NCBI GenBank assembly: GCA_902705825.1
Contig: CACSIL010000045.1
Location: 80,113 to 144,112 of the forward strand
Source of the DNA: Halioglobus japonicus
Lineage (GTDB): Bacteria; Pseudomonadota; Gammaproteobacteria; Pseudomonadales; Halieaceae
Direction of reading: 5' to 3'
DNA: 64,000 bases
The position numbers and the translations under genes were made by a program. Each line of letters starts with the position of its first letter. Positions within the stretch are counted from its first letter, which is position 1. Shown here piece by piece: positions 14,218-52,447 of this stretch. The notes under the pieces were generated by a model, which did no database searches, was not told the DNA's origin, and saw only the letters and a program-made list of their open reading frames with translations.

Positions 14218-15102
14218 TCAGCGGCGCGCAAGCAACTCGCACAAGCGGTCGATTTCCGATAACTCAGCTGTAGCGGGGACAACAAACAACTCCTCGCACT
14301 GGGCTTCCTCGGCATTGTCCAGCGCCTCGCGCACCGCATCTGCACTGCTGCGGTGTACCGATTCGGCCATCATCGTGGCGATGTCGCTACCGGCAATTGC
14401 CAGGTACTCGTAGACGTAGTCGTAGAGTTTTTGTTGTCCACCATCGGCCAGCGTGTACCAGAAACCACCCATACGGTAGGGTGTTTGCTCTCGGCCTGCG
14501 CGTTCCCACGCCGCCTCGGCCATCGCAAAAGTTCGGCTCAATTCCTCCTCTTCGCCATTGCCCGACCAGGCGTAGAGTCCATCGGCCCACTGCGCACAGC
14601 GTTCTATACTTTTCGGACCCATAGCGCCGGCCAGCAAGCGGGGGCCACCCGGCCTGTTCATAGCGGGGCCGATTGCTCCACCTCCGGCAACGACCTCCTC
14701 GCCACGCCAGATTTTACGCATCTCCTCTACCTGTCGGTCCATTCGTCCGTAACGGCCTTCAAAGCGAGCGCCGAGCGCCTCATAGTCTTTTGGCCGCCCG
14801 CCGTAGCCGAGCACGATGCTGTTCACCCGGTCACCGGAGAGAATATCCAGAGTGGCGACTTCCTTGGCGACGCGGGCGGCACTGTGCATTGGCAGTACGT
14901 ACAATGTAGGGGTGAGCTCAATCCGAGTGGTGGCCATCGTTGCGGCAGCCAGCAGCACCCGCATGTCATAAGTGGGGCCATGTATGCGCTCGCCACAGGA
15001 CAGCGCGTGAAAAGGCCCGTCGTCGATGGCTTTGAACCATGCCTGGTAGTCCTCGCGGCTGAGACCGGCTTTCATGTACGGCAGGCAGACGCCGATTTTC
15101 AT
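14218..15102 (-). CDS. LLM class (luciferase-like) flavin-dependent oxidoreductase
   Basis: About 294 residues beginning KIGVCLPY, with the ATTRIELTP strand and a VNSIVLGYGGRPKDYEALG stretch typical of bacterial luciferase-like TIM-barrel oxidoreductases. Such enzymes use FMN or F420; which one cannot be told by sight. The open frame extends about 96 residues further upstream, but that stretch does not look like the family and the luciferase fold starts at MKIG. ATG 15102 is therefore chosen, with GTG 15114 as an alternative. The substrate is unknown, and it is divergent from the lipoprotein gene at 15354. Confidence 0.82.
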   Translation of the reverse strand: MKIGVCLPYMKAGLSREDYQAWFKAIDDGPFHALSCGERIHGPTYDMRVLLAAATMATTRIELTPTLYVLPMHSAARVAKEVATLDILSGDRVNSIVLGYGGRPKDYEALGARFEGRYGRMDRQVEEMRKIWRGEEVVAGGGAIGPAMNRPGGPRLLAGAMGPKSIERCAQWADGLYAWSGNGEEEELSRTFAMAEAAWERAGREQTPYRMGGFWYTLADGGQQKLYDYVYEYLAIAGSDIATMMAESVHRSSADAVREALDNAEEAQCEELFVVPATAELSEIDRLCELLARR

Positions 15103-49820: not shown

Positions 49821-51203
49821 ATGAGTCTTAAACTTTACAATACCTTGAGCGGCCGTAAGGAAACGTTCGAGCCGCTGGTGCCTGAAACCGTGACCATGTA
49901 TGTCTGTGGCCCCACGGTGTACAACCTGGCACATATTGGCAACGCGCGCCCGGTCGTAGTGTTCGATACGCTGTTCCGTCTGCTGCAAACGCACTATGAC
50001 ACTGTGACCTATGCGCGCAACATCACCGATATCGATGACAAGATCATTGCGGCGGCGCGCGAGGGACAGCGCGGCATAGAGTCTGTCACTGAGGAATACA
50101 CAGCCAAGTTCCGCGAAGATATGGCGCAGCTCAATGCGCTGCCGCCGACACTGGAGCCGCAGGCAACCCAGAACATCGATGCGATGATCGCCCTTACTGC
50201 CACGCTGCTGGAAAAAGGTCACGCCTATGAGGCGCAGGGCCATGTATTGTTTGCGGTTGAATCGATGGAAGATTACGGCAAATTATCCAAACGCTCTCTG
50301 GACGATATGCTGGCAGGCGCCAGAGTAGAGGTTGCCGATTACAAACGGCACCCGGGCGATTTCGTGCTGTGGAAGCCCGCCAGCGACGAAGACCCGGGTT
50401 GGGACAGTCCCTGGGGACGAGGGCGGCCGGGGTGGCACCTTGAATGCTCGGCGATGATTCGCGAGCACCTGGGTGACACCATCGATATACACGGCGGCGG
50501 CCGCGATCTGATTTTCCCTCATCACGAAAATGAAATCGCCCAGAGTCGATGTGCACATGGTGGCGATTACGTGCGCTACTGGATGCACAATGCCTACCTT
50601 GATATAGACGGTGAGAAAATGTCCAAGTCACTGGGCAATTTTCGCACTGTACGCGATCTGCTGAAAAGCTATCGCGGCGAGGTGCTACGCTTTGCGCTGC
50701 TGTCAGCACAATATCGCTCACCACTGAATTTCTCTGTGGAGTTGTTAGATCAGGCGCAGGCCACTCTCGACAGTCTGTACAGCACGCTGCGCGATGTGGC
50801 AGATGTCGATGTGGATATGGAGGTCAGCCTGGTAGACGAACCGTTCTATCACGCGTTAAACGATGATCTGAATACGCCTGTTGCGATTGCGGAGATTCAC
50901 GCCCTTGCCAAGCAGTTGCACAAAGCGGCGCCCGAGGACAAGCCCGGACTGAAAGGTCGCATACTGGCGGCGGGAAATCTGTTGGGTATTCTCGAGCAGG
51001 ACGCGGTGGAGTGGCTGCAGGGTAACGCTGCGTCCGGCGCCATTTCAGCCGAGGAAGTCGAAGCACTGATTGAGGAGCGCCTCGCGGCCAAGCTCGCCAA
51101 GAATTATGCGCGGGCCGATGAAGTACGCGAGGAGTTGCTAGCGCAGGGTGTGGTGCTGGAGGATTCCCGCGAAGGTACGCAGTGGAAGCGTAAGTCGGAT
51201 TGA
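49821..51203 (+). CDS. cysS: Cysteinyl-tRNA synthetase
   Basis: About 460 residues. The HIGH-type AHIGNARP near residue 36 and KMSKSLGN near residue 267 are intact, and the Zn-binding residues include Cys28 in YVCGPT and the HHENEIAQS stretch. It charges tRNA-Cys. ATG 49821 has GAGGGGG about 7 bases upstream; an open frame from 49707 lies within glnS. Its 3' end leads into the unusual repeat region at 51.2-51.6 kb. Confidence 0.97.
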
Positions 51204-51249
51204 CCATAGCGTCATTCTGAAAGTGATTTTTGGGGTCGAGTGAGTCGAC

Positions 51250-51338
51250 GGGCTGGTGCTCCAGAAGACATTTCAGTCGCTCCCGGGGTGCCGGATCAAC
51301 GAATTCGCTTGGTGAAACGCCTTCTGGAACACGAGCCC
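51250..51338. repeat. Hairpin A: imperfect inverted repeat after cysS
   Basis: Eighteen bases at 51250-51267 (beginning GGGCTGGTG) pair with 51321-51338 (ending GAGCCC), with two mismatches. The 53-base loop holds TCAGTCGCTCC (51273-51283) and GAATTCGCTTGGTGA (51301-51315). Both are complementary to the loop region of the next hairpin. Confidence 0.75.
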
Positions 51339-51411
51339 TGCATCGCAAAGCTACGGCGCACGAGAGCCAAATTGGAAAGTTTTAGTGATCTACCTAGGTG
51401 GCACAGAGTTA

Positions 51412-51488
51412 GGTTACGGATACCCAATGTGTTTCTCACCAAGCGAATTCCGTGGAGCGACTGAGAAACACATTGGGTATCCGTAACC
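51412..51488. repeat. Hairpin B: perfect 27-bp inverted repeat
   Basis: The arm 51412-51438 (starting GGTTACGGATACCC) is the exact reverse complement of 51462-51488 (ending CCGTAACC), with a 23-base loop. The loop and arm edge at 51436-51450 and 51454-51464 match the reverse complement of the loop of hairpin A. There is no T-run and no coding content. Confidence 0.9.
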
Positions 51489-51584
51489 GGCAAGCGTGGC
51501 GATTTCCCATGCCAGCAGGAATGACGATTTCTCGTAACCGGCAGGGATGGTGATTTCCCGCCACCGGCAGGAAGGGCAACTCCC
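51483..51584. repeat. Four degenerate tandem units of about 23-28 bases
   Basis: Units start near 51483, 51511, 51534 and 51560 and share an ACCGGCAGG-x-ATGG-x-GATTTCC-like consensus. The first unit begins inside the right arm of hairpin B. The sequence runs to within 20 bases of the folD stop codon. Confidence 0.7.
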
Positions 51585-51601: not shown

Positions 51602-52447
51602 CTACGCCAAGCTTTTTTCGCCCGATACAACACTCTGCATGATCAGGGTGTTGATCGTCATTGGCCCAACACCGCCCGGAACTGGCGTGTAGGCAGAGGC
51701 TCGCTCCACCAGCGGTGCCAACTCGATATCGCCGACGCCGCCCGGGTGGTAGCCAGCGTCAACCACGACTGCACCGTCTTTTACCCAGTCAGCTTTGATG
51801 AATTCCGGCTTGCCCACGGCACCGACCAGAATATCGGCCTGCGCGATGATGCTCGGAAGGTCTTTGGTACGGGAGTGGCAGATGGTCACTGTGGCATTTT
51901 TTTGCAGCAGCATCATGGCCATGGGCTTGCCGAGGATCGGACTGCGGCCGACGACAACCGCATGTTTGCCTTCAATTTCAATCCCGTAGTGCTCGAGGAT
52001 GCGCATGATGCCCTGGGGCGTGGCACAACCGTAGGCGTCCTCGCCCATCGCCATGCGGCCGAAACCGAGGCATGTTACGCCGTCTACGTCCTTGGACAGG
52101 GCGATAGCGTCAAAGCAGGCGCGCTCGTCGATTTGCTCTGGAACGGGGTGTTGTAACAGGATGCCGTGTACATTGGGGTCGTTGTTCAGCTCGTCAATAC
52201 GCGCCAACAGCTGCTCGGTAGTGGTCGAGGAGGGCATTTCTACCGCAAGCGATTCCATACCCACCCTGCGGCAGGCGTTGCCTTTCATTTTGACGTAAGT
52301 GGCGGAGGCGGGGTCATCACCGACCAGGATAGTCGCCAGTATCGGTGTTCTGCCGCCAGATTGCGCTTTTAACTGGTCTACCCGCGCCAGTAAGTCAGCT
52401 TCAGATTGTGCTGCCAGGGATTTGCCGTCCAGGACGAGTGCAGACAT
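51602..52447 (-). CDS. folD: Methylenetetrahydrofolate dehydrogenase / methenyltetrahydrofolate cyclohydrolase
   Basis: 281 residues. Catalytic Tyr51 and Lys55 occur in TYVKMK, and the NADP loop [11 protein letters not shown] near residue 166 and PGGVGPMT near 260 are intact. It supplies formyl and methylene groups for purines, thymidylate and methionine. It is convergent with cysS across the repeat region. Its promoter is not obvious on the minus strand. Confidence 0.97.

Follow-up and report, generated by a model that had tools for sequence, protein, structure and literature searches.

A dispersed, possibly mobile hairpin repeat with a conserved loop and freely varying stems in Halioglobus and its relatives

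Introduction

In Halioglobus japonicus, two hairpins whose loops are complementary to each other sit between two convergent genes, a cysS-like gene (+ strand, ending at 51203) and a folD-like gene (- strand, 3' end at 51602; both names are our reading of the translations), which raises the question of what such a layout is and whether the two hairpins act on one another. They lie in a 64,000-nucleotide stretch of contig CACSIL010000045.1, here called the window. A preliminary description of the locus had proposed a kissing complex or a switch between alternative folds and, as a further thought, a repeat family with a conserved core on different stems. The reading that we prefer, with a probability of about one half, takes the pair as a single copy of a dispersed and non-autonomous mobile hairpin resembling REP/BIME elements, which is read via its loop as a single strand.

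Two inverted units in the window

Hairpin A (51250-51338) and hairpin B (51412-51488) have the same loop core in opposite orientation, and each is a copy of a repeat unit made of a stem of ~26 bp and the 23-nt loop CCAAGCGAATnnCGTGGAGCGAC. The coordinates and the 11- and 15-nt loop complementarities first reported are exact: TCAGTCGCTCC (51273-51283) has its reverse complement at 51454-51464, and GAATTCGCTTGGTGA (51301-51315) has its own at 51436-51450, the latter match being recovered also as an inverted repeat of the window. The loops are complementary because A and B carry the same sequence in inverted orientation. The parts of the feature, with the strand that is predicted to be maintained (see below), are:

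51250-51275, - strand: outer stem arm of hairpin A
51276-51312, - strand: loop of hairpin A, an insertion variant, with GTCGCTCC, extra nucleotides (a mini-hairpin CCGG/CCGG is possible) and ATTCGCTTGG
51313-51338, - strand: inner stem arm of hairpin A, 22 of 26 pairs with the outer arm
51339-51411, no strand: interior between hairpins A and B, 73 nt
51412-51438, + strand: inner stem arm of hairpin B
51439-51461, + strand: loop of hairpin B, CCAAGCGAATTCCGTGGAGCGAC, the 23-nt family loop
51462-51488, + strand: outer stem arm of hairpin B, 27 of 27 pairs

Hairpin B, in which a 23-nt loop is closed by a perfect stem of 27 bp, was the only hairpin that a seed-based scan of the whole window listed at its threshold. 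Hairpin A, which the scan missed, has a 37-nt loop with 14 nucleotides more than the family loop, and these interrupt its continuous complementarity with hairpin B. The segment 51230-51500 folds at -114.7 kcal/mol, compared with -86.9 (s.d. 4.7) for shuffled sequences (z = -5.88; 0 of 200 shuffles as good). Right behind hairpin B, at 51487-51563, are three imperfect direct copies of a 26-nt sequence of the CCGGCAAGCGTGGCGATTTCCC type.

Copies and host range

Searching the genome of origin with 51230-51500 returned more copies with the same layout. A genome search for the two core motifs, which the preliminary description had suggested, yielded seven copies of the split core GTCGCTCC..TTCGCTTnGTG in that genome and none of the reversed control; the same core occurs 120 times in G001, 15 times in G016, 25 times in Pseudohaliea rubra (G030) and twice in G034, i.e. 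in 5 of 57 genomes (own included), with the reversed control at zero in all 57. A shorter core turned up in 12 of the 140 genomes searched from the window's family (121 copies in G001 against 0 reversed), with one occurrence of its reversed control in each of three genomes among the 140; three of the 12 (G081, G095 and G114) hold single stemless matches that we treated as chance, as we did stemless core matches elsewhere in the scan of genome contigs. With a covariance model of the hairpin, carriers in the family number 14 of 140, a divergent loop subfamily (..GCGAGTATCGGGGAAGCGGG) included; copy counts from this model refer to the candidates scored in each genome and are to be read as 'at least'.

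Beyond the family, the same model found two carriers among 369 genomes sampled from the class, the genome of origin and G326. In the order of G326, another gammaproteobacterial order, 23 of 396 genomes carry the hairpin (G326 included), and loops there such as CAAAGCGAGTATCGGGGAGCGAC sit on quite different stems. Twenty-nine G326-type loci were inspected: the loop was visible in 26; the other three (L340, L350 and L356) were clipped loci viewed at a wrong offset, and of these the L340 match was confirmed separately. Among the matches listed, the named carriers of close copies include Halioglobus MAGs and P. rubra, while Lysobacter has the same loop on unrelated stems; related loops occur in further families as well. 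The loop sequence had no match in phage, plasmid and viral collections.

A conserved loop on covarying stems

To describe the variation within the family we used 28 hairpins selected to have dissimilar stems, namely L232 and 27 others in which 21 or more of the 26 positions pair, drawn from the Halieaceae, from Lysobacter and from one divergent subfamily. All 26 stem pairs show changes on both sides, with 297 both-sided cells compared with 90.5 in shuffles. Stem cells are paired in 96.6% of cases, falling to 45.7% or 46.6% when the arms are slid by one column; the selection favoured paired hairpins and so biases the 96.6% upward, which makes the count of both-sided changes the telling figure. 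The loop, by comparison, is invariant at 13 of its 23 columns over the same hairpins. The idea of a repeat family with a conserved core on different stems is thus borne out by dispersed copies whose stems are unrelated yet paired, and the copies with compensatory changes that it was proposed to look for in related genomes do exist. Repeat copies and covariation together rule out a chance palindrome.

Stems of 26-27 bp prevail in the main group (55 of 86 hairpins) and slightly shorter ones, of 23-24 bp, in Lysobacter (18 of 24). Loop insertions, seen in the window's hairpin A, in further copies from the genus and among the G326 relatives, share one site, around which the flanks AAGCGA and GAGCGAC are conserved, and the inserted nucleotides may form a mini-hairpin of their own.

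Two origins for the stem sequences were considered and rejected. Several copies in G001 have the same mismatch, implying that stems are copied rather than renewed, so that arms are not made afresh at each insertion. Nor does the stem appear to be taken from the target, since visual comparison of two G016 copies shows no counterpart of their arms at the empty sites of the genome of origin. The hairpins at L088, L105 and L208 mix stem types, joining a B-type left arm to an A-type right arm or vice versa, which may reflect recombination between loops, an inversion of the interior or an assembly error.

One strand is kept folded

The mismatches that do occur in the stems are distributed very unevenly between the strands. 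Among the 125 of 154 distinct cores with at least 20 of 26 pairs, mismatches read on the GTCGCTCC strand are A-C or C-A in 126 cases and G-T or T-G in 14; on the opposite strand, with the loop CCAAGCG.., these same mismatches are G-T/U wobbles. A second count, which used a strand-neutral wobble filter and stems thinned to <85% identity, gave 93 G-T against 21 A-C on the CCAAGCG strand over all groups. By group the G-T:A-C counts were 42:11 for Halieaceae type I, 15:0 for subfamily II, 26:8 for Lysobacter, 5:0 for the G326 type and 5:2 for P. rubra, the last two each nonsignificant alone and the 5:0 coming from one hairpin after thinning. The bias indicates that one defined strand, that with the CCAAGCG loop, is kept folded, although a mutational bias linked to orientation could imitate it. 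In the window, the maintained strand predicted from the loops is + for hairpin B and - for hairpin A, in which case one molecule would be unable to hold both in their maintained form.

Pairing, orientation and genomic placement

Orientations were counted from covariance-model matches, and gene directions were taken from open frames rather than annotation. The 143 clusters comprise 72 single hairpins, 60 '-+' pairs, two '+-' pairs (L150 and L202), two '--', one '++' and six larger clusters; 47 of the singles lie away from contig or locus ends, and the others may be cut. Sixty of the 65 two-hairpin clusters are therefore '-+', with the maintained strands pointing outward, and 62 of 65 are inverted overall, leaving five exceptions to '-+'. 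The interior of '-+' pairs ranges from 35 to 327 nt and measures 95-104 nt in half of them (30/60). One genome, G553, has an alternating array of eight hairpins, as in BIMEs.

Copies lie between open frames, often just past a stop codon. The '-+' pairs framed on both sides (n = 46) stand between convergent genes in 22 cases, tandem genes in 18 and divergent genes in six. Thirty-seven singles stand clear of contig or locus ends, have a frame within 350 nt on each side and are faced by one or more gene ends; in 28 of these the maintained strand runs antisense to the closest such gene (15/18 in convergent and 13/19 in tandem settings). At the rpoC-like gene of G000 and G016, copies lie (by eye) past what appears to be the gene's own terminator.

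Most clusters of frames near copies came from a locus sampled more than once or from frames within the repeat itself. TonB-receptor-like frames recur at five loci and ABC-transporter-like frames at four, as judged from the translations, and none of the recurrent neighbour frames looks like a mobilising enzyme. Among the positions listed, no gene was seen between the hairpins, as an autonomous copy would have. The one arrangement with widely separated hairpins, at L369:388-1724 (G677), consists of two ordinary pairs on either side of two small open frames whose translations resemble a toxin and its antitoxin.

Gain, loss and drift between related genomes

Comparison of related genomes shows that copies can be present in one and absent from another at syntenic sites. 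Region C23 of G016 is collinear with C1 of the genome of origin; the G016 copies at L046:11089-11333 and 14648-14722 have no counterpart at the collinear sites, and at L046:4039-4291 a pair in G016 corresponds to a single hairpin with an unrelated stem. Such differences fit insertion and loss alike, and neither a precise junction nor a duplicated target was established at these sites. Between cysS and folD, the hairpin in G016 belongs to the other loop subfamily, and the spacer of G008 is short and lacks one. The patchy carriage in the family and the absence of copies at syntenic sites speak against a general essential role.

The site between rpoC and rpsL, in contrast, has a pair in two species (G000 and G016), in which several stem positions have changed on both arms with pairing kept (by eye). 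This common position counts against the mobile reading, and is as would be expected of a fixed functional element. The exceptions to the prevailing orientations, five of 65 two-hairpin clusters and nine of 37 singles, weigh against that reading as well.

Past the cysS-like gene of G013 (L236), another species of the genus, at the place of the window's element, there is a long ..GTCATTCCCGCGAAAGCGGGAATCC.. repeat array.

Proposed mechanism and alternative explanations

In the mobile reading, the unit would be the ~26-bp stem with its 23-nt loop, and the usual copy two inverted units maintained '- then +', outward, often ~100 nt apart. One defined strand, with the loop CCAAGCGAATnnCGTGGAGCGAC, would fold, and a putative factor acting in trans would read the conserved loop, most likely on single-stranded DNA, and spread copies to intergenic sites, in many cases right behind a stop codon. 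The stem would serve as a scaffold only, which must pair but is otherwise free in sequence, and could therefore drift through G-T/U intermediates. We infer mobility in trans, a single-stranded DNA rather than RNA substrate and the factor itself from these patterns; a gene for a recognising or mobilising factor was not found among the genes near copies.

The main rival is a structured RNA, because stem mismatches would look alike whether the folded strand is RNA or single-stranded DNA. Here the strand with the CCAAGCG loop would be transcribed (in pairs, outward from the interior), the loop would bind a protein, and dispersal would be secondary. Wobbles of G-U type on one strand together with both-sided changes are the classical signature of an RNA, and single-site loop insertions with mini-hairpins that leave the flanks AAGCGA and GAGCGAC in place are likewise as seen in RNA evolution. 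Yet the antisense placement of the maintained strand in most singles means that such an RNA would mostly need its own promoter, the element at rpoC stands past the apparent terminator in both genomes inspected, and Rfam has no match at gathering score; we consider this account rather unlikely, roughly a one-in-four prospect. The idea of a host chromosomal element, bound by a replication or nucleoid protein or acting as an insulator downstream of genes, that spread by recombination and is kept for the host, is more improbable still: it would suit the prevailing orientation to gene ends and the rpoC-rpsL position common to two species, but not a distribution over 14 of 140 family genomes with copies missing at syntenic sites.

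The kissing complex, or switch between A and B, finds no support and is very improbable. It draws on the exact complementarity, and with all genomes pooled the partners do agree more than expected, 32 of 46 pairs sharing two variable loop positions (13.7 when shuffled) and 21 of 46 having identical loops (6.1 when shuffled), an excess in its favour unless differences between genomes alone account for it. Within the richest genome, G001, loop agreement is 7 of 12 against 6.3, with no excess. Moreover, the maintained folds of A and B are on opposite strands, whereas a kissing-loop RNA would have both hairpins maintained in one strand with covarying loops; single hairpins make up about half of all clusters (72/143), and the loop of the window's A is interrupted by 14 nt. 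A GTAG-type REP/REPIN with unusually long stems, moved by a Y1 (RAYT/TnpAREP) transposase, is comparably improbable to the host-site idea, and the evidence on it is given with the known repeats below.

A second, unrelated dispersed hairpin family is present in the genome of origin and its relatives (L046:7734-7843, L324-L328, L330). Its conserved loop of ~58 nt, ACGCCAAAAAGCGCACATCC...GTCGCCACACG, consists of two mini-hairpins and is carried on long, (nearly) perfect stems of unrelated sequence; L329, L330 and L331 are among the copies that look decayed. The copy in G016 has no equivalent at that position in the genome of origin, and in Rfam a copy gave one weak sub-threshold match, to TwoAYGGAY.

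Going beyond the mobile reading itself, the element may represent a separate class of bacterial mobile hairpins, unrelated to Y1/REP, whose factor would read a long conserved single-stranded loop (AAGCGA...GAGCGAC) on a sequence-free stem scaffold; we put this forward tentatively, at clearly less than even odds. The usual picture of REP-type repeats is of short palindromes that bear a tag and depend on a single transposase family. A widespread gammaproteobacterial repeat of similar habits, with a long stem free in sequence, a conserved loop and no consistent Y1 partner, would imply that strand-specific mobile hairpins can originate by more than one route, and a second unrelated family of the same architecture in the same genomes would make this a general lifestyle with enzymes of its own. 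The conserved loop offers a clear bait for fishing out the protein.

Comparison with known repeats

At gathering score, Rfam reports three tRNAs in the window and nothing at the element, where E-values up to 1 bring in only microRNA models far below their cut-offs. Integron attC sites have consensus R and L boxes and an integrase nearby. Y1_Tnp is the REP transposase family, and it is present in 7 of 14 carriers compared with 26 of 126 other genomes of the family, as a GTAG-type REP would lead one to expect, but absent from the other seven carriers, including P. rubra and G016 with their many copies, though some of the seven are incomplete genomes. In REP proper, a GTAG tag goes with a Y1 gene flanked by repeats; here, G000 and G001 have three Y1 genes, none with a hairpin within ~1.5 kb, and GTAG at the 5' foot is rare in the hairpin groups (5/86, 0/11, 0/8, 7/15, 0/10 and 3/24). 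The rarity of GTAG, the lack of Y1 in half of the carriers and the distance of Y1 genes from hairpins in the two genomes inspected place the element outside REP proper, despite a similar way of life.

In the portions consulted of the papers on these repeats, REP and BIME elements are extragenic and strand-specific and form inverted doublets and arrays (PMC2817692, PMC3733652, PMC8266576), and GTAG REPs have stems of 5-13 bp with loops of 2-20 (table of PMC3733652). The freely varying ~26-bp stem and long conserved 23-nt loop of the window's element depart from these short stems and loops. CGTC-tagged palindromic repeats, found mainly in Alphaproteobacteria, are closer in that head-to-head dimers prevail and a dedicated transposase is not known, and are set apart from the element by their 8-9 bp stems and 4-5 nt loops, according to the part of PMC3733652 that treats them. 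No description of this loop or of this stem-loop geometry was recognised in the sections of the open-access literature consulted.

The element shares with REP/REPIN/BIME repeats its extragenic position, its many copies, a defined active strand, inverted doublets, alternating arrays and, in our model, movement in trans; the strand bias of its mismatches points indirectly to possible recognition of a single-strand hairpin by an enzyme, as in REP/BIME. Although it fits none of the described families checked, it resembles small mobile hairpin repeats.
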